In this document: positions 12,064 to 42,690 of the stretch, one piece after another
Position numbering within the stretch: the stretch's first letter is position 1
How the letters are laid out: every line of letters starts with the position of its first letter
Assembly (NCBI GenBank): GCA_025201375.1
Contig: JAIWZP010000005.1
Coordinates: 186,001-250,000 of the forward strand
Reading direction: 5' to 3'
Length of the DNA stretch: 64,000 nt
DNA from: Gongronella butleri
Lineage: Eukaryota > Mucoromycota > Mucoromycetes > Mucorales > Cunninghamellaceae
Position numbers and translations under genes: made by a program
The notes under the pieces: generated by a model
The model's input: the letters and a program-made list of their open reading frames with translations, nothing else
Told to the model about the DNA's origin: nothing
The model's database searches: none

Positions 12064-12444
12064 TTATCGCACATGGTTATACCAATTTTCATCCTGCAAA
12101 AATAAAGCTATTCTTGTTATTGCCCGTCTTTTTTTATTATTTGGCCCTTTTTTGACCGTTCCTGTCTGTAGGGTTCCTTTTGTATCTTTCTTTGAACTAT
12201 TTTTACATACCACACGTAGACGTTCACCATAAAAATGGCATTTCAGACGATGCCTGTTCTTTCCAATCATGTCTTGGCAAGCTGGACACATGGTGCGTGC
12301 TGATTTTGTCCTTTTTTTTGTGATCTTCTCATCATTGAATGTATGATCTACAGTTGACCTTGCGGAGTTGACGAAGCTTCTTGGCCTTGGCTTTCGAATG
12401 GTGCCAGTGTAATCGGCGTGAGACCAAGTTTTTTCTGGATGCAA
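12064..12444 (-). pseudogene. Possible gene remnant with a CxxC...H...CH cluster
   Basis: An open frame of 126 codons, of which only the middle looks protein-like: C53 and C56 in TMCPACQDMIGKN, then RHRLKCHFYGERLRVV with further Cys/His. That spacing suggests a small zinc-binding module, and a GTATGT donor directly follows the VV. Upstream, AG/GTCAAC and AAAATCAG could be a donor and acceptor. No complete gene can be assembled, and the remnant lies just outside foldback copy A. I do not recognise the family; a transposon-derived origin is a guess. Confidence 0.25.
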
Positions 12445-12619
12445 AGGAAAAAATCACGCCCATGCCAAAAGATCGCATTTCACGGTTGATTTCGTTGACG
12501 GTCTCAAACCAAAAACCAGCATGCTAGCTTGCAATCGTCGATACACACGTACTCAAGCGCGAAATATGGACTCAAACTTGGCAGTCCTCAAAACAGGGAT
12601 GATTCTTGAGCAAAACACC

Positions 12620-14290
12620 ATTTTTGGACAAATAACTTGTTATGCCTTGTTTACGTTTGATTTTGCAAGTAGCTGTGGTACTCACGGATTGGGGCCAGTT
12701 GCAGGGTGAATTTCAATAGCACTTGTATTGCACCAACGCGGTAAAATAACGCTTTGTAAAAAACCCATTCTATGAATGCCATTTTAGCAGGGGCTTTTCA
12801 AAAAGCCGGTAAATATTGACATGCCCGTGTACATCAGCATCGTGACATCTATACCCATTTGGTTTCGTCTCGGCGATGCGTCCCAATGGTGAGTATTCGA
12901 TGCTTAGCGTGATTTTCACTAAAAACTGCGTGCTCTCGACAAGCCTCCATTCGATCCTTCTGAATTTTTGTTAATCGCAGAGGACCGAGATGCGATTCAA
13001 CTTTGTTATAAAGAGCAAGGAGCTGTAATGCAACACAAGCAACATGATCCAAAAAAAGTAAAATAGCTCCAGTCTTTTGCATATTGTGCGTGATTTACAT
13101 TACTAGTTCTCTTTGAAACCAGACCCATTGTGTAGTTTGCGTTGCTAGCTACATCTTTCCTGCTTGTAGCAACTCGGTTGGATGACGTACAAGGGAGTTG
13201 TACCAACCCGAAAAAATAAAAACACGCTAAATTGCGTTGTCATGAGTATGTTATTAACCAAACCAAGATCAGCGCGTAGAGCACGTTATCTTACAGATTT
13301 TCTATCTGCAAGTGACGCGCTACGGGGCCCAGAAAAAAGCAAATGAGAGGAAAATCGCCTTATTTTTGAGGTATTTGCATTTTGCATGATTTCCTTCAAG
13401 GCAATCTTCTCCATAACTCTCATCATGCGTGAAACGCGATGACAGCTTCAAATTTGTAGCTTGTGCCACTACCTGGAAATGAAGATTAGCTATATATAAG
13501 AATGACATTTTCAAAATTGAAGTTTTTTCTCTCTCATTTTCATTTACTGATCAGCGCAGCGCTTAGCCTGAGTATGAGAAAATGGCAAGACATCGTGCAG
13601 TATGCATTGTTTTTGGCTTGGAGAGATAAAAATACGTAAGCGATGCACAGCAGGCAAAAGGCTGTGGTTGTTTTGTTCTATTTGGGTCATCTGGTTTTTG
13701 CTGTATTGAAGCAGCTTGATGCAAATAACAAAGTTGAATCGCACCGCGATACTCTATGACTGACAAAATTTCAGAAGGATCGAATAGAGGCCATGTTGAG
13801 AACATGCGGATTTTAGTGAAACACATGCAAAGTAACGAGTACTTGCCATTGGAACGCGTCTCCGAGGCAAAACCAAGTGTATGCAGACGCCATGAAGTTG
13901 ATGCATACAGGCGTGGCAAAATTTCTCTAGCTTTCAAATTTCCCCCGCTAAAATGGCATTCCCAAAATCCGATTTATTACAAAGCGCGATTTGACCGAGT
14001 TCTTACAATACAAGTGCCCCTGAAATTTACACCACAGGCGGGCCCAATCCTTGCGCACAAAAGCAGCTCTCACGCTTTAGTGTACTGTACTTCAGATATT
14101 TGTCGCGATGTATGGAAAGGTGCATTATTATTGTAGTTTGGCCGTTTTTCAATAAATATATTACTTTTACGTAAAACCATTTGCCGACAATTCTAGAGGA
14201 TTCAAGTTTTCTCGCTCAAATGAGCCCATTGTTGGAGTTCGGCGGCTACTAGATGGCGCGCAATGATGGGTTTCTGTTTTTTTTGGGATC
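12620..14290. repeat. Foldback element, family 1, copy A
   Basis: The left arm (about 12665-13330) reappears in reverse complement as the right arm (about 13555-14115). Anchor pairs are TGCCATTTTAGCAGGGGC at about 12779 against CCCCCGCTAAAATGGCA at about 13945; TTTGGTTTCGTCTCGG against TCTCCGAGGCAAAACC; and GATGCGATTCAACTTTG against CAAAGTTGAATCGC at about 13730. The spacer (13330-13555) resembles the spacer of copy C. The right flank CTAGATGGCGCGCAATGATG (about 14251) is shared with copy B. No intact transposase frame is present, so it is non-autonomous or decayed. Arm identity is roughly 70-80% by eye. Confidence 0.8.
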
Positions 14291-14479
14291 GTTTTCGCCA
14301 TTCGAATAAAGGGGCCGGTCTCTAATATTTATTTCACATGACTTTTACACACCCTCGCTGGACGCCCACACAAAGCGGGTTTGTTATTCGTCATAATCAC
14401 CCTGAGCTTGACGGTACTTTTAACGGCAAAGAGTGGAATTAAATAAATGGATGTGCATGAAGAAAAATTATTATGGCGC

Positions 14480-14680
14480 TAATGTGCTAGTGCGATGGGT
14501 GAATGGACCGGCGGGTGATGTAGTAGCGCAAGGGGTGGCCGGGACGGCGGATGTAGAAGCGCGAGGGGTGGATGGACGGGCAGACGTGGAAGCGCGAGGG
14601 GTGGATGGACGAGTAGATGAATAAGCGCGATGGGTGGACAGGTCAGCGGAGGTGGAAGCGCGGGACGTTGCTGGGAGGTG
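14480..14680 (+). repeat. 33-bp minisatellite block, left member of an inverted pair
   Basis: Four to five diverged units of about 33 bp with core GTGGATGGACGGGCAGACG and AAGCGCGAGGG. Read on the + strand the block encodes repeats like ARGVDGRADVE. The same unit occurs in reverse orientation at 16,930-17,140. The two blocks bracket the decayed gene at 14,690-16,806. Confidence 0.75.
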
Positions 14681-14689
14681 GCTCCAGCG

Positions 14690-16806
14690 AAGAGAGTTTT
14701 CTTTGCGGACGCGGAAAATGCTTTGAAATTTACCGCGAGGTCAACTCGACGCTTTCAACGTACCAAATCGCGATGTACATACAAAACGACGTGAAAGAGC
14801 TGATCAAGAAGCGGCCGGCACAAGAAGCGTGTATAAGCAAGCGTTGGCAGTCACAATTAGAGGGAAATTACTATGGTTAGTCAAAGAGTGATTACACGGC
14901 TAACTTTTTCTTCTTGGTTTTATTTTTTTAGACAGTTGTGGCTATCTCCCGGCAGGAACACGATTCACGCCACCAACAACTCGCTCCTGCGGCCAACAAA
15001 GTGGCCGAATCACGGCACCCTAGTGGGAATGTGACCATCAACCAGACCACCGCATCGACAGTCCCTAGCAAGCGATCAAATGACGCCCCAGTTGTGAGCG
15101 GTCCTTCATTCACTTGCTCGGGGATGTGCTAATGCCTTGTTTTTTTTTTTTTTTTTTTTTTTTTTGCAGGATTCGATTTCACTAGAGAAAGGCAGGAAAA
15201 AAAGATACGACTTTGGGCCGCAGATGAAGCCATCCGTGTCGGTCGACAAGCCGCGCGTCGCAGTCATCGACAATCAGCAGCTAGTCCGGCTAATAGCAAT
15301 CAAGATAAGCGACGAATCCTTGCCAAATACCCCCGCCAATCTTATCGACATGTATGAAATCAACAAGGAACAGCAGCAGCAAATTCAGCTCTCATGGCAA
15401 GGCCAGCGGCCGTGAAGTTGCTCCAAGGCGCCCTCGACCAACGACAAGAGGACCTGTGCGATTACCTTTGGGCAAGTGCCAACGACGATGCCGTAAGCGG
15501 CGATGAAAAGGACATGGTCACGTTGATGCGGCTGGTTCTTGCCGATTTTTGGGCGAACACAACAAAACCCGAGTATCCGCGAGCAACAAATGATAGAACG
15601 CCCTTTGCCGAATCGATTATCCCTCTATTCAAATAAATGTCAGCAATCGTGCGTTTTGTGGCATTTGTTTGGTAAATTTTGTCTTTTTTTTCATCCATTA
15701 TTCTAACGATTTTATACATAGTGTAAAAAGGGGCTCTCAAACAGCTGGGCAAAGCGCAACAAGCTCATGGACGGCATCGGCACCACGCTTTCTGACCGCA
15801 TGGATCACATTTTGATCGAGTCGTCAGGGTAAAAAAAAAAAAACAAGGCAGTATTTCCGTCACAGCAAAGGCGACGAAAACGCGATCCAGTCTGCTCAAA
15901 AGGGCTTCACTCGCACCGCGACCTCGCCAACAAGTGAATATGCGACGACTCTCGACTTGCCATTGGTCTTGATGGCGCTTGCTAGTGAACGCGGCGCCGG
16001 CGAGCTCAGCTTGAAAGAGTGGTACAAGTCCACCAATGCCGTCTACACCATCAAGGATTCCTGGCAAGAAGTCCCTATTTTCTGCGCAAGTGACAAGGGC
16101 GGCTATCATGCCCGCTTGACGCAATCTGTGTGGGATGGCCAACTCGCAGCAAAGGCCTATAGGAAATTCGTCGTCAAAGGTGGCCTGGTGGCCGACACAA
16201 CCACCTACTCGCTCTGCCGCAACCACATTCGTGTCCTTTTGCGCAACTTGAACGCGGATGCTGTCAACGAGCTCTCTGAGCACGCGCCTGGCTCGACGGT
16301 GGCGCAGAAGTATTACTCCGCGCGTGGTGCCGACTTGGACGTCACGAAACTCATGGAACACGAGGAGGTGGTCTACTTTGACGACGGTGACCGCGTGCTG
16401 ACGAGCGCAGTGTCGTTTGCTAGCCACAAGGAAGGTCGTCTCACCAAGGATGAATATCAGCAGGAGGTGGGCAATGTTTCGCTCTATTTCTCTCCACTTT
16501 TTTAGCCTCGCAGATGGCCAACACACAGAGGAAGATACGCTCAAGTTGCTAGAATACAAGTCCCTGTGTCTCCAAGAGGAAAAGGGCCACTACCAGCAAG
16601 CTTCGCACGTCACTTTTAGCAAGCGCCGCTGCTTTGCCATCCAAATTGTTCGGCGAAAGGTGTCGCTGCTTTCGATCTTCGTCGGTGACGATGACCGGTG
16701 GAATTCTCTTTGGGTGCGCTCTGCGCTCATCCCGGACCGTTGGGACCAGCGCATTTATTGGTTTCAAGCCTTTGAATTTCTAGCCAAGATCATAGTAACG
16801 GGTTGA
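14690..16806 (+). pseudogene. Decayed member of a repetitive protein family, interrupted by a nested recombinase fragment
   Basis: Several exons can be followed: one ending ...SKRWQSQLEGNYY (to 14876; GTTAGT donor, GCTAAC branch site, ACAG acceptor); an exon from about 14937 (VVAISRQEHDSRHQQ) to about 15090; and one from 15170 (DSISLEKGRKKRYDFG) through NTPANLIDMYEINKEQ. The frame then breaks near 15400. It resumes with RPAAVKLLQGALDQRQ and RTPFAESIIPLFK, where TAA at 15634-15636 interrupts LFK*MSAIV. Further exons read GLSNSWAKRNKLMDG and MDHILIESSG, then from 16506 LADGQHTEEDTLKLL through FLAKIIVTG. The pattern (ERTPFxxSIIPLFK, xxESSG, HTxEDTLKLL) resembles an uncharacterised multicopy family I associate with Mucoromycota. 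One frameshift plus one stop indicate a pseudogene. The intron at 15829-16505 (677 bp) is far longer than its neighbours. Confidence 0.5.
15846..16504 (+). mobile_element. C-terminal part of a DUF3435-like tyrosine recombinase inside a host intron
   Basis: A frame open from the A-run at 15831-15843 to the stop at 16503-16505 encodes about 220 residues. It follows the order of the DUF3435 (Starship captain) catalytic region as I know it: HSKGDENAIQ (the KG lysine block), LDLPLVLMALASERGAGEL, SWQEVPIFCASDKGG, then TTTYSLCRNHIRVLLRN (the YSLRR-type arginine block), ELSEHAPGSTVAQKYYSA (the GH...YY block with the candidate nucleophile tyrosine) and ADLDVTKLM. The N-terminal third, with the first catalytic arginine, is missing, and no ATG lies near its beginning, so this is a truncated copy. 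It lies exactly within the intron (GG/GTAAAA...TTTTTTAG) of the decayed gene, same strand. A Crypton-type recombinase is the main alternative. Confidence 0.5.
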
Positions 16807-16864
16807 TGTGAAACAAGGCACGAGTAATCAATGGAATTGTGATAGGATTTGCTGAAAGGGCATA

Positions 16865-17149
16865 ATGGCCTCGTGTGCGTCCGAAAAGAAGATACCCTTC
16901 GCTGGCACCACGGCCCGCCTGCATCCACGTCTTCTGGCCTCCACGCCTCACTCTCCCACGTCATCGTCTTCTGACCCGTCCATGTCTCGCTCTCCCACGT
17001 CGTCCGTTGGTCCGTCCACGTCTCGCGCCCCCATCTCCTCTGCTGGGCCGTCCACGTCTCGCGCTGCCCCCATCTCCGCTGGCCCGTCAACGTCTCGTGC
17101 TCCCCCCACCCCTGATCCGTTCACCTCTCGCACTCCAACGCCAAAATAA
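16865..17149 (+). repeat. 36-bp minisatellite block, right member of the inverted pair, with overlapping open frame
   Basis: Units of about 36 bp (core GGGCCGTCCACGTCTCGCG plus CCCCCATCTCCTCT) run from about 16,930 to 17,140. In reverse complement they match the left block: TGGACAGGTCAGCGGAGGTG at 14636 corresponds to the TGACGGGCCAGCGGAG strand here, and both encode TGQRRW in one frame. On the + strand the block lies in a 94-codon frame from ATG 16865 (MASCASEKK..., then GPSTSRAPISSA repeats). That could be a real Ser/Pro-rich peptide gene, but the repeat explains it equally well. Confidence 0.6.
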
Positions 17150-17639
17150 ATCATCCTTTTCCGTTCATGTCCATATAATCTCATATTAATTCGCGTTTGG
17201 GTGAAAAATGGCCTTGAAGTTTGTGTTTTTACAGCCAAAATAAGGTTCATCTCGATTGCGTCCGCGGTTTTGATTTTAAAAATATGGTTTGCTGGGAGCA
17301 TTTGTAGAGAAAAAAATTGCAATTACTTTGCTTAATGCATCTTGCACGAGCTCTGATGAACCGGTGGTTGAGCGAGGCAGACGTTGCCCCGCCGACGATG
17401 TCAGCAAAGTTGCGCAAGGGAGTGTCCAAGGGGTCTTAGTAACAATAAAATACGCGCATTTCAATCACTTCGCAATTTGCGCGCATTTTAAGCTAGACAA
17501 TCCTCTCAAATTCATATCCTACTGCGCGTGGACCATGATTTAGGCAACGTTGGTGGCCTTTGGGGATCACTAACATGGACAGGGTCTTTTGAAAATGGTA
17601 TTGACGCGTAAAAAGTTCATTTTAGAAATAGAACGTCAC
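17150..17639. other. Gene-free stretch between minisatellite and foldback copy B
   Basis: About 490 bp without a supported exon. It is AT-rich, with an A-run near 17310. It holds no obvious copy of either repeat family. Confidence 0.4.
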
Positions 17640-18975
17640 GTATTTGGTGTACAGCGGACCTTAATAGCTAGTCTTATGCGTAAGGATTCTGTCCACCTAC
17701 GGCGTGAATTTTAGGGCACACTTTATTATGCGAATGCGGTAAAATCGCGCTTTGTAAAAAATCCACTTTTGTGAATGCCATTTTAGCGGGGGCTTTTGAA
17801 AACCAGTGAAATACTGACACGTCCGTGTGCGTCGACATCGTAGCACCCGCATTCACTTGGTTTTGTCTCGGTGGCGCGTCCCAATGAAGAGCAACCGTTG
17901 ATTAACGTGATTTTCACTACAATTCGCAAGTCCTCAACATTTTAGCTATTGGATCAGTCTGAAATTTTGTCAGATTCACGGGACCGTGTTGCGATTCAAC
18001 TTGGCTGTATAGATCAAGTTGCTCTGATGCATATCTAGCAAGTTACTCCTAGAGGATCAACAGAATGCCAGCCTTTTTCTTCGTGATTTCTTCTTAGCTT
18101 CATTTCTCATTGCTTAAAGATGCATAGTTGTACTAGACAACGTGCTCTATGTACTGCCCTTGGTTTCGAGAGACTTTGTTAGGTGCGAACTCAAGTAATG
18201 CGCCAAATTGTAATTTTATTTCCTTTGAACTAGTAGAACTTTTTTTCGAGGACAGTGTACAGCCTTGCTGCAAGCGGCAAAGTTGTGGCTGGCCGCGCGT
18301 ATCACACAGTGCACTTTGTTTCAAATGTATGCAAGGGATACTCAATGTGCAAAAGGCAAAAAAGCGGGGACTGTTTGCTCATTTTGGATTATCTTGCGTT
18401 CGCTACATTGAAGCTCCATGCTACATATAGCAAAGATGAATAGCACCTCGGTCCCATGAAGATGACAAAGTTTCAGGCTGATCTAATAATAGGAATGTCG
18501 AGAACACGCGACTTTTCGTGAAAATGACGATATTCGACGATTACTCGCCAACGGGATACGCCATCGAGATCAAATCAAGTGGATGCAGATGCCACGATGC
18601 TGATGCACACGTTCATGTAATATTTCGCTGGTTTTTAAGACCCCCCTGCTAAAATGGCATTCACAAAATGGTCATTTTTACAAACCGTGATTTGACCGCG
18701 TTTTTACTATGCAAGTGCCCCTGAAATTTACCCCACAGGTGGACCCAATCCTTGCGGACAAAAGCAGCTGTTGAGCTCTGCTGCACACCACATACACGAC
18801 GTTCTGTGTGGAAAAGGGACCAATTGCTTGTTTTTTTGATTACGTGCTCATGTTTGCATCAGTAACAAAGGTATTTTTTCATACATCATAAAATTGACAG
18901 TGTCCTTATTTGAATGGGCCCACTGTTGCAGCATCGTGACCCTTAGATGGCGCGCAATCATGATTTTCAAACCTC
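17640..18975. repeat. Foldback element, family 1, copy B (left arm truncated)
   Basis: The left arm (about 17640-18060) begins TTTGGTGTACAGCGGA and contains TGAATGCCATTTTAGCGG and GGTGGCGCGTCCCAATG. The right arm (about 18090-18800) is the reverse complement and includes CTGCTAAAATGGCATTCACA (18646) and GTGGACCCAATCCTTGCG. The right arm carries the inner part (CTTGCTGCAAGCGGCAAAG at 18263) that the left arm lacks, so the left arm has an internal deletion together with the spacer. The outer flank TTAGATGGCGCGCAATCATG (18941) matches copy A. Confidence 0.75.
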
Positions 18976-18989
18976 ACGGATTTTCCTAG

Positions 18990-19730
18990 GAGTACAGTCG
19001 AAGATTTGAAATTGACAAAATTAAAGTCGTCAGATCGCCACGCCATTCAATCACATTGTACTGTAGTTGGCCCTCATTCACTGACAAAAAAGCAATAAAA
19101 AAAGCAGTCCAATGACTTATTTTTGCGTAGAATGCAATTTAGCGCCAATTTTCCGTACAAGGTCAACTCGATGAAAATGCCTGTATCTCCAAGAAACGCA
19201 TACCATCAGAAAGGGTGTGGCTTGCTGCGCATGTACACATCGGTGATCAGTGAAAAAAGTGATTCTTTTGGTGATTTTGACACGGTTTTAAAGTTATAGT
19301 GATTTTGTGACGCGCAAAACCCGCGTCAGACATTGAGTTACACGCGTCTGTTTCTAATCAAATCCATATCCCTGGAGTGTCTCTTGCTCATGGACACGCC
19401 GGCGCGGGTCTATAAACACGTTTTTGCAACGCAAATTACATGCAAAGTAAAATATAAAATCAGTCATTTCTCATCAATGAGCTAATGGACCGCCATGCTT
19501 TTTGCGATTTTCTTCGGTGTTCCATCTCGGATGCTCTTGTGGACTAGGTTTAGTTGACTTTTGGAGACCCAATTTTCCCATTTTGGTTTCAGGGCTCGAA
19601 GCGACTAAGTTTTGAATCTGCTCGTGTAGATAACTGATTGCGTCTGGTTCAGTGTTTCTAGAGCACGTCGTGACAATGGGACGCGTTTCGGGGAGTCAAA
19701 GTGTATGTGTCGCGAGGTAAAGCAATTTAA
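18990..19730 (+). repeat. Repeat family 2, copy R1
   Basis: Aligns on the same strand with 47,560-48,270. Anchors are CAGATCGCCACGCCATTCAA (19032 and 47601), GCAATAAAAAAAG (19091 and 47653) and CCGCGTCA...TTACACGCGTCT (19321-19350 and 47884-47912), followed by a shared stretch around TGTCTCTT and GGACACG/GGACGCG. No open frame is conserved between copies. It directly abuts foldback copy B. Confidence 0.6.
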
Positions 19731-40736: not shown

Positions 40737-40989
40737 GAAGGACTGCAAGAAAAAAAGAAAAAGTGTAGCACCTAAATCCGGCCAGAGGATCGCGCCATGT
40801 TTTTGGCCGCGCCTATTCCAAGCGCTTTTTGAAAAAAAAAAAATTGTCGTTTTGCACGCTGTGCAGTTGCCGCAGTATGCCCGCAAAGGGCTCATACGGA
40901 CGAGAAAGCGCTGTAATTTTTATATTTGATGAGCAAAATGTCTTTGGACATAGTGGACTTTTTGACAAACACTCAAAATACAACAAAAA

Positions 40990-42690
40990 CACTGTTTTCC
41001 ACACATCGCGACAAATATCTGGTGTACAGCGGAGCTCGCGCGTTGCTTTTGTGCGCAACGATTGGGTCCACCTACAGTGTGAGTTTCAGGACAACTTGTA
41101 TTGTGCAAACGCGATCAAATCGCACTTTGTAAAAAATTCACTTTTGTGAATGCCATTTTAGCGGGGGCTTTTTGGAACCCCGTGAAATAGCGGTATGCCC
41201 GTGTTTGTTAGCAAAATGGCATCTTAATGCACTTGGTTTTGTCACGACGGCGCGTCCCAATGGCGCGCATTCGTCGATTAACGTGATATTCACGAAAAAG
41301 CGCGTGTTTTTGACATCCACAATATTTGATCAGTCCGACATTTTGTCAGCTACTCGGTTTCGAGTAGAGATTCAACTTTGGTATTCACATCAAAAGGTTT
41401 CGCAGAAGCAACCGCTAGATGATCCAAAATGAGCAAACTATTTACACCTTTTTGCATATTGAGCGTCCTTTTGCATTTATCCACCCATTTGAAATCAGAT
41501 GCACTGTGCGGCATGTGTTGCCACTACAACTTTGCCGCTTGCAGCAAGGCTCTACAATGGCATCTACGGTATTTTGTAACCAGCACCAAATAAAAAATAT
41601 TCTAAAATACGATTTCACGAGCATGCTACTACCCCAAATCTCTCGAAACCAGGATTAATGCATAGAGCACGTCGACTGACACCATCTTGCACCTTTAAGT
41701 GACGCGCTACGAGGGCCTAGAGAAATGGTGAGAGATGAAACACCGTGTTTTGTTGAGTTATTTGCATGCTGCGTTCTTTGATTCAAGTCAATCTTCCCCC
41801 ATAACTGGTGCCATGATCAAGCACAATCGCAGCTGCAAGTTTATAGACTGCGCCCAATGCCGTACGCGAAAGATTTGTTATAGAAAATACACTATATACA
41901 AAAAAGAAAGTGTCTCATTTATTACTTTTATTTTTCTAGGCATCGTAGTTCTTTGCTTAAAGAAGCAAACCTGTGTAAGACATCGTGCTCTATCCATTGC
42001 TCTTGGTTTCGAGGGATTTAATCATGTACAATCTCGCGAAAATACGCCAGTTTGCTGTTTTATTATTTGGGATGGGCACAACTACCTTTAGTACCGTCGT
42101 AGAACCTTGCTGCAAGTGGCAAAGTTGTAGCTTGCAACGTGTACTACATAGTACATATGGTTTTAAATGCGTCAATTAATGCAAAAGGACGCTCAATATG
42201 CAAAATCTGATAATATTTTGCTCATCTTGGATCATCTTGCTTTTGCTTCTCTGGAGCCTTCGACGCAACTACCAAAGTTGAATTTCACCTCGGAACCGAG
42301 TAGCTGACAAAATTTCAGGCTGATCGAATAATGCAAATGTCGAGAACATGCGATCTTTCGTTGAAATCACGTTAATGGACGCTTACGCGCCACTGAGATG
42401 CGTCTCCGAGACAAACCAAATGGATGAAGATGGCACGACGCTGACGCACACGGGCATGCCACTATTTCACGCGTCTCCCAAAAGCCCCCGCTAAAATGGC
42501 ATTCACAAAAGTGGATTTTTACAATGCGCGATTTGATCGCGTTTGTACAATACAAGTTGCCCTGAAATTCACACTACAGGTGGACCCTATCGTTGCGCAC
42601 AAAAGCAGCTCGCGAGCTCCCCTGTACATTGGAGATATCGATTTTGGCGCCCGAAATTAGCATTTTAGGCGCAATCATGGCGTTTTGCAC
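40990..42690. repeat. Foldback element, family 1, copy C (best preserved)
   Basis: Two arms of about 700 bp (about 41000-41720 and 41940-42660) are reverse complements. Paired anchors: AAAAGCAGCTCGCGAGCTC (42601) with GAGCTCGCGCGTTGCTTTTG (41032); CCGCTAAAATGGCATTCACA (42489) with TGTGAATGCCATTTTAGCGG (41146); CTTGCTGCAAGTGGCAAAG (42107) with TTTGCCGCTTGCAGCAAG (41531). The spacer of about 210 bp resembles the spacer of copy A. The left end CACATCGCGACAAATATCTG also occurs, inverted, at the right end of copy A (14090-14108). No transposase frame is seen. It lies between SMG9 and the Dabb gene. Confidence 0.85.

Follow-up and report, generated by a model that had tools for sequence, protein, structure and literature searches.

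A probable recombinase-gene relic in an intron of a Gongronella butleri pseudogene points to a small captain-like family in this Mucorales fungus

Analysis of a 64,000-nucleotide stretch of the Gongronella butleri genome (hereafter the window; Mucorales, Mucoromycota; assembly of 33.0 Mb in 110 contigs) uncovered, within an intron of a degenerate gene, an internal piece homologous to three recombinase-like genes encoded elsewhere in the same assembly. The piece is most likely an inactive relic captured in the intron, predicted to be spliced out and left untranslated (probability about 0.8). It is most likely ordinary in function and of value chiefly as a lead to a small family of captain-like recombinases in a member of the Mucorales. 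The coordinates of the piece, of its predicted active-site positions, and of the gene that hosts it are given in Table 1.

The host intron has GT-AG ends and carries a same-strand open frame, as the initial annotation had described and as the sequence bears out. The frames on either side (ESS-G and LADGQHTEED) belong to one gene, as indicated by a paralog on contig C45 (G000:C45:889718-890743), pieces of which bridge the recombinase sequence. When used as a tblastn query, this paralog matches window positions 15248-15370, 15376-15672, 15752-15826, and 16540-16797 and skips the recombinase. The last host exon has six matches in a genome search, including that of the window, and an intron of the same position and phase (phase 2, after ESS) is present at three of these six loci, namely the window, C45, and C87, in a comparison that covered five of the six and left out C46. 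The introns at C45 and C87 measure 63 nt and 72 nt (the latter counted by eye), while C52 and C41 read uninterrupted through this position with no intron. The paralog blocks uphold the earlier assignment of the flanking exons to a single gene. Subtracting the recombinase-homologous part shortens the window intron to about 53-71 nt, a normal intron length, and insertion into an existing intron is the simplest reading. A-runs behind the splice donor, such as the one in the window, occur in relatives too.

Table 1 Features of the window around the recombinase-homologous piece.
Feature	Position	Strand	Basis and remarks
Palindromic (fold-back) repeat, left of the host pseudogene	12672..14069	.	sequence searches
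Host coding block 1	15248..15370	+	tblastn with C45 paralog, 39% identity
Host coding block 2	15376..15672	+	tblastn with C45 paralog, 47% identity; frame differs from block 1
Host coding block 3	15722..15828	+	ends ..ILIESS-G; tblastn match 15752-15826; left end and phase by eye
Intron of the host pseudogene	15829..16505	+	677 nt, GT-AG, phase 2; sequence
Presumed residual host intron, 5' part	15829..15845	+	donor and A13 run; sequence
Internal fragment of a putative captain-like recombinase gene, both ends truncated	15846..16466	+	about 620 bp; ends uncertain by about 10-20 bases
Lys, predicted catalytic Lys position (Cre K201)	15867..15869	+	alignment and spacing
Tyr, predicted Cre H289 position (Tyr in Sanctuary captain)	16206..16208	+	alignment/spacing
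Cys, predicted second catalytic Arg position	16215..16217	+	alignment; inactivation inferred
His near Cre W315 position	16281..16283	+	by spacing
Tyr, predicted nucleophile position	16314..16316	+	alignment/spacing
Presumed residual host intron, 3' part	16467..16505	+	GTGGGC..TTTTTTAG; homology stops 16463-16469
Host last coding block, LADGQHTEED..IIVTG	16506..16803	+	52% identity to C45 paralog
Palindromic (fold-back) repeat, right of the host pseudogene, same family	17630..18815	.	sequence searches

The host gene itself contains a frameshift near 15370-15376, an in-frame TAA at 15634-15636 within block 2, and a block 2 to block 3 splice (15671 to 15722, using the nearest GT/AG) that appears by eye to be out of phase. 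Judged by these three signs, the host gene is a pseudogene, and the C45 paralog has apparent lesions too. No Pfam match at E ≤ 1 was found in the scanned pieces of the host gene and of the C45 paralog; the gene may resemble a widespread, un-named Mucoromycota family. When the host frame is read into the intron it meets an immediate stop, and the recombinase lies in a different frame from the host. A host-recombinase fusion produced by intron retention was rejected on account of this stop.

P0001, the protein of one of the three related genes, shares 36% of its residues with the fragment across 214 aa (E 4.2e-37). Alignments to the paralogs stop at 16463 or 16469, while their start is less sharp and was placed by eye near 15846-15858. 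An open frame of 229 codons (15816-16505, plus strand) contains the fragment and shows a codon periodicity in GC content (0.56, 0.43, and 0.69 at codon positions 1, 2, and 3). Openness by chance is unlikely: among second-order random sequences, a given 208-codon frame stays open in 0.3-0.35%, and any of the six frames in 1.2-1.7%. Since the antisense frame is likewise open over the fragment (274 codons, 15765-16589), homology rather than openness is the main evidence.

The sequence blocks named in the initial annotation are present in the fragment, but YSLCRN has Cys in the predicted place of the second catalytic Arg, and truncation at the 5' end takes away the first, so the complete R-K-R-H-Y pocket is absent. 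Along with the first Arg, the fragment is missing all sequence before it and the C-terminal fingers; its Lys and both Tyr retain the spacing of P0001, and the Lys position precedes any in-frame ATG. With one Arg lost and the other replaced by Cys, the fragment is very likely inactive. In the 74 kb around the locus, a tblastn search with the full-length relative (gene A) picked out the fragment and nothing else at significance (runner-up E 0.46), so no N-terminal or zinc-finger part was found near the fragment. Silent-site changes between the fragment and the paralogs have reached saturation, and the parent gene was therefore an old, separate lineage. The fragment frame has neither stop nor frameshift beside a host with two or three lesions, a combination expected by chance at about 0.15-0.3 in a rough Poisson estimate.

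Genome searches recovered three further recombinase relatives: gene A (contig C2, protein P0001), gene C (C2, P0002), and gene B (P0003), which lies near the end of contig C45. The search for full-length copies proposed with the initial annotation thus yielded three related genes, but no closer copy of the fragment lineage was found in the G. butleri assembly. Gene A was assembled from five exons and encodes 784 aa, while the database model P0001 is 536 aa in length and agrees with gene A across the catalytic part. When the P0001 region was searched against proteins, the three G. butleri proteins were the only ones at E ≤ 1 among 3408 candidates, and a profile search returned the same three at E ≤ 10 among 7990 candidates scored; both searches require shared 5-residue words, so that distant relatives could escape. 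The fragment alone gave nothing at E ≤ 1 among 306 candidates from the protein database, and its comparisons to Pfam, the protein database, and viral contigs gave nothing recombinase-like. A profile search of the PDB returned a single match, to a capsid protein (E 1.7), and nothing meaningful. P0001 is the best-preserved relative and could still be active.

The initial annotation had filed the fragment under DUF3435 (PF11917; curated cut-off 25.8 bits), the family of Starship captains. This filing does not stand, as the window fragment scanned in three cuts matched no tyrosine recombinase profile and the relatives score below the curated cut-off. An initial scan of three paralog frames brought up DUF3435 in only one of them (E 0.0095); it then appeared in the trimmed catalytic regions of all three relatives, with E-values of 0.0042 (P0001), 0.24 (P0002), and 0.19 (P0003). 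These three matches fall at overlapping places in the profile, and one reversed control was silent; the best score, 16.5 bits for P0001, is below the cut-off. Whole P0001-P0003 gave no DUF3435 match at E ≤ 10, and whole gene A and a 549-aa part of gene B gave none at E ≤ 1. Sub-threshold matches of this strength arise for unrelated families too, as the fragment itself matches DUF1707 at E 0.006; in P0002, a complement domain (E 0.2) ranks ahead of DUF3435. A search of the whole genome with the DUF3435 profile was silent, as were that search's own controls. We regard the DUF3435 homology of the relatives as remote and unproven, and as favoured by the naming of the family ahead of the search and by the recurrence of the match at one place in the profile.

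Candidate catalytic residues were placed by alignment and spacing only. P0001 carries R103, K150, Y263, R266, and Y299 (spacing 47/113/3/33), that is, the R, K, Y, R, and Y of a captain at captain spacing. Shuffling the catalytic part of P0001 produced captain spacing to within 3 residues in 148 of 20,000 cases, and shuffling the whole protein did so in 454 of 20,000. The full R-K-Y-R-Y set is absent from the window fragment and from P0002 and P0003, which keep just the two Arg. AlphaFold models of P0001 and of the exon-4 region have mean pLDDT values of 40.8 and 38.2, too poor for the pocket. Near their C-terminal end the relatives contain CxxC and H..H fingers, which match profiles only below cut-off. 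The suggestion that the intron sequence belongs to a captain-like tyrosine recombinase family is therefore indicated through the paralogs, but not by the fragment itself, which lacks a recombinase profile match. The interpretation given in the initial annotation is in this sense partly supported, and the fungus, a member of the Mucorales, is indeed early-diverging.

P0002 and P0003 have in common Asn in place of the Lys, Asp in place of the Tyr, and Leu in place of the His, and their nucleophile position is occupied by Asn or Ile. Across the catalytic region (311 codons), the two differ by 53 silent changes at 222 sites and 20 replacement changes at 710 sites (Fisher p 4e-20), with dN/dS of 0.10 (NG86), 0.17 (YN00), and 0.14 (ML). 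The corresponding values are 0.23, 0.39, and 0.33 for the whole alignment (731 codons) and 0.32, 0.58, and 0.47 downstream of the catalytic region; 9 P0002 codons and 2 P0003 codons at exon joints were excluded from the alignment. This purifying selection suggests that the pair was domesticated, and because the catalytic region is the more constrained part, that its function does not involve recombination.

A tRNA-His(GTG) gene has three genomic matches (L031:8233-8303, L030:5905-5975, and G000:C64:7657-7741), two of which are no more than 0.9 kb from a recombinase gene. Since the C2 and C45 recombinase loci share duplicated sequence, these two adjacencies are not independent. A second copy of the tRNA-His 3' end was not found in the C2 and C45 stretches searched, and the tRNA gained no support as an attachment site. 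The C64 tRNA-His locus does not qualify as a simple or syntenic empty site, and no Starship boundary or empty site was found.

The palindromic repeats on either side of the host gene have a third copy in the window at 40959-42628, with arms of about 0.4 kb across the three. A query spanning 12600-19100 gave at least 151 genomic matches, by eye mainly on the palindromic repeats, and these matches seem, again by eye, to fall mostly within a single stretch of each contig, a distribution that centromere-associated repeats might show. We rejected the possibility that the repeats are the ends of a recombinase-bearing element, since they lie outside the host gene and belong to a separate family of high copy number. 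An inverted segmental duplicate of window positions 12156-14983, at 85% identity, lies just outside the window (G000:C56:182733-185853) and extends over the upstream portion of the pseudogene region. Minisatellites at 14517-14638 and 16928-17110, on either side of the host pseudogene, are related in sequence and opposite in orientation.

In the reading that we prefer, the parent gene would have been a captain-like tyrosine recombinase (R-K-Y-R-Y), of which a piece of about 620 bp would have entered a pre-existing host intron, for instance as filler DNA when a break was repaired or as what was left of a larger insertion, and the piece would now be without function. The last of these routes shades into a rather unlikely alternative that overlaps with it, in which a whole captain-like mobile element inserted here and later lost all but part of its recombinase gene through deletion. 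Captain-like relatives do exist in the genome and palindromic repeats do flank the locus, but these repeats are the separate high-copy family already described and lie away from the insert, the search of the surrounding 74 kb gave no other piece of the recombinase gene, and inspection of the fragment junctions by eye showed no target-site duplication.

The intactness of the fragment frame beside a lesioned host could mean constraint, and counts against a relic. Together with its codon bias, it would suit a selected, domesticated sequence, such as a nested or alternatively spliced recombinase-derived domain. PMC3212892 provides a precedent for this in the intact Crypton recombinase frame that birds carry in an intron of ATF7IP; P0002 and P0003 are moreover under purifying selection despite their lost catalytic residues. 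We consider this quite improbable, as the earliest in-frame start codon of the fragment comes after the Lys position, the frame is unjoined to that of the host, the host gene is broken, and the locus is single-copy for selection testing. It is also improbable, if a little less so, that the recombinase similarity misleads altogether, the C2 and C45 genes being an unrelated zinc-finger family and their DUF3435 match a product of chance. Every DUF3435 match is below cut-off and about as strong as matches to unrelated families such as DUF1707, homologs at E ≤ 1 or E ≤ 10 among the candidates scored were confined to G. butleri, and the PDB offered no meaningful match. Against chance stand the proposal of DUF3435 ahead of any search and its subsequent recurrence in all three trimmed relatives, the agreement of P0001 with the Sanctuary captain in spacing and in the Tyr that replaces His, and the near-equal lengths of gene A and that captain, with Cys/His fingers near the C-terminal end. 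A captured, inactive relic thus remains our preferred explanation.

The window piece is itself just a pointer to these relatives. If a captain-like family is truly present in Mucorales, the origin of this recombinase type moves deeper into the fungal tree, and BC940DRAFT_331514 provides a named gene with which such a deeper origin can be tested. A wider and tentative proposal, against which we place the balance somewhat, is that Mucoromycota have their own ancient Starship-captain-like lineage, represented in G. butleri by one gene that retains every residue of the captain active site and lies next to a tRNA-His gene near a contig end, by a second pair domesticated after the loss of catalysis, and by the window intron as the only remnant of a third lineage, such that captain-type recombinases would pre-date Dikarya.

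Starships are described as elements of Pezizomycotina mobilised by DUF3435 captains (PMC12134995), and eight have been reported in the basidiomycete Tremella fuciformis (PMC13066641). G. butleri belongs to neither group, being a member of the Mucorales, and our literature search found no report, among the papers that it covered, of DUF3435 in early-diverging fungi or Mucoromycota, nor of Starship captains in Mucoromycota. The closest likeness is to the Sanctuary captain, whose catalytic residues are given as R260, K308, Y424, R427, and Y458 (PMC12506042); its spacing of 48/116/3/31 is close to that of P0001, unlike the 28/88/3/32 of Cre, and P0001 likewise has Tyr in place of Cre His289. In HhpA, two Tyr at places matching the Sanctuary captain are reported to be necessary (PMC12506042). 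Gene A further resembles this captain in length (784 aa vs. 786 aa), and its putative Cys/His fingers lie near the C-terminal end, the part that in the captain includes a DNA-binding region. The G. butleri genes differ from DUF3435 captains in a profile score under the cut-off and from Starships in that no element ends or cargo were found, and the window copy differs from a captain in being truncated, with the first Arg gone and Cys at the second.

Cryptons, whose fungal distribution includes Rhizopus, carry an R-H-R-Y tetrad with His included, and an intact Crypton recombinase frame is described inside an intron of bird ATF7IP (PMC3212892), a situation resembling the recombinase frame in the intron of an unrelated gene seen here. 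Crypton identity is unsupported, as alignment and spacing place Tyr (window, P0001) or Asp (P0002, P0003) rather than His in the aligned position; full-length gene A also gave no Pfam match at E ≤ 1 to GCR1_C, the DNA-binding domain of fungal CryptonF. The relatives have no match to DUF3504, the domain of domesticated Cryptons, and P0001, the sister of P0002 and P0003, has captain-like rather than Crypton-like spacing. P0002 and P0003 nevertheless resemble the DUF3504 genes in having lost their catalytic residues while under purifying selection, and this constrained pair would be a captain-type counterpart, in a fungus, of the Crypton recombinases that animals have domesticated.
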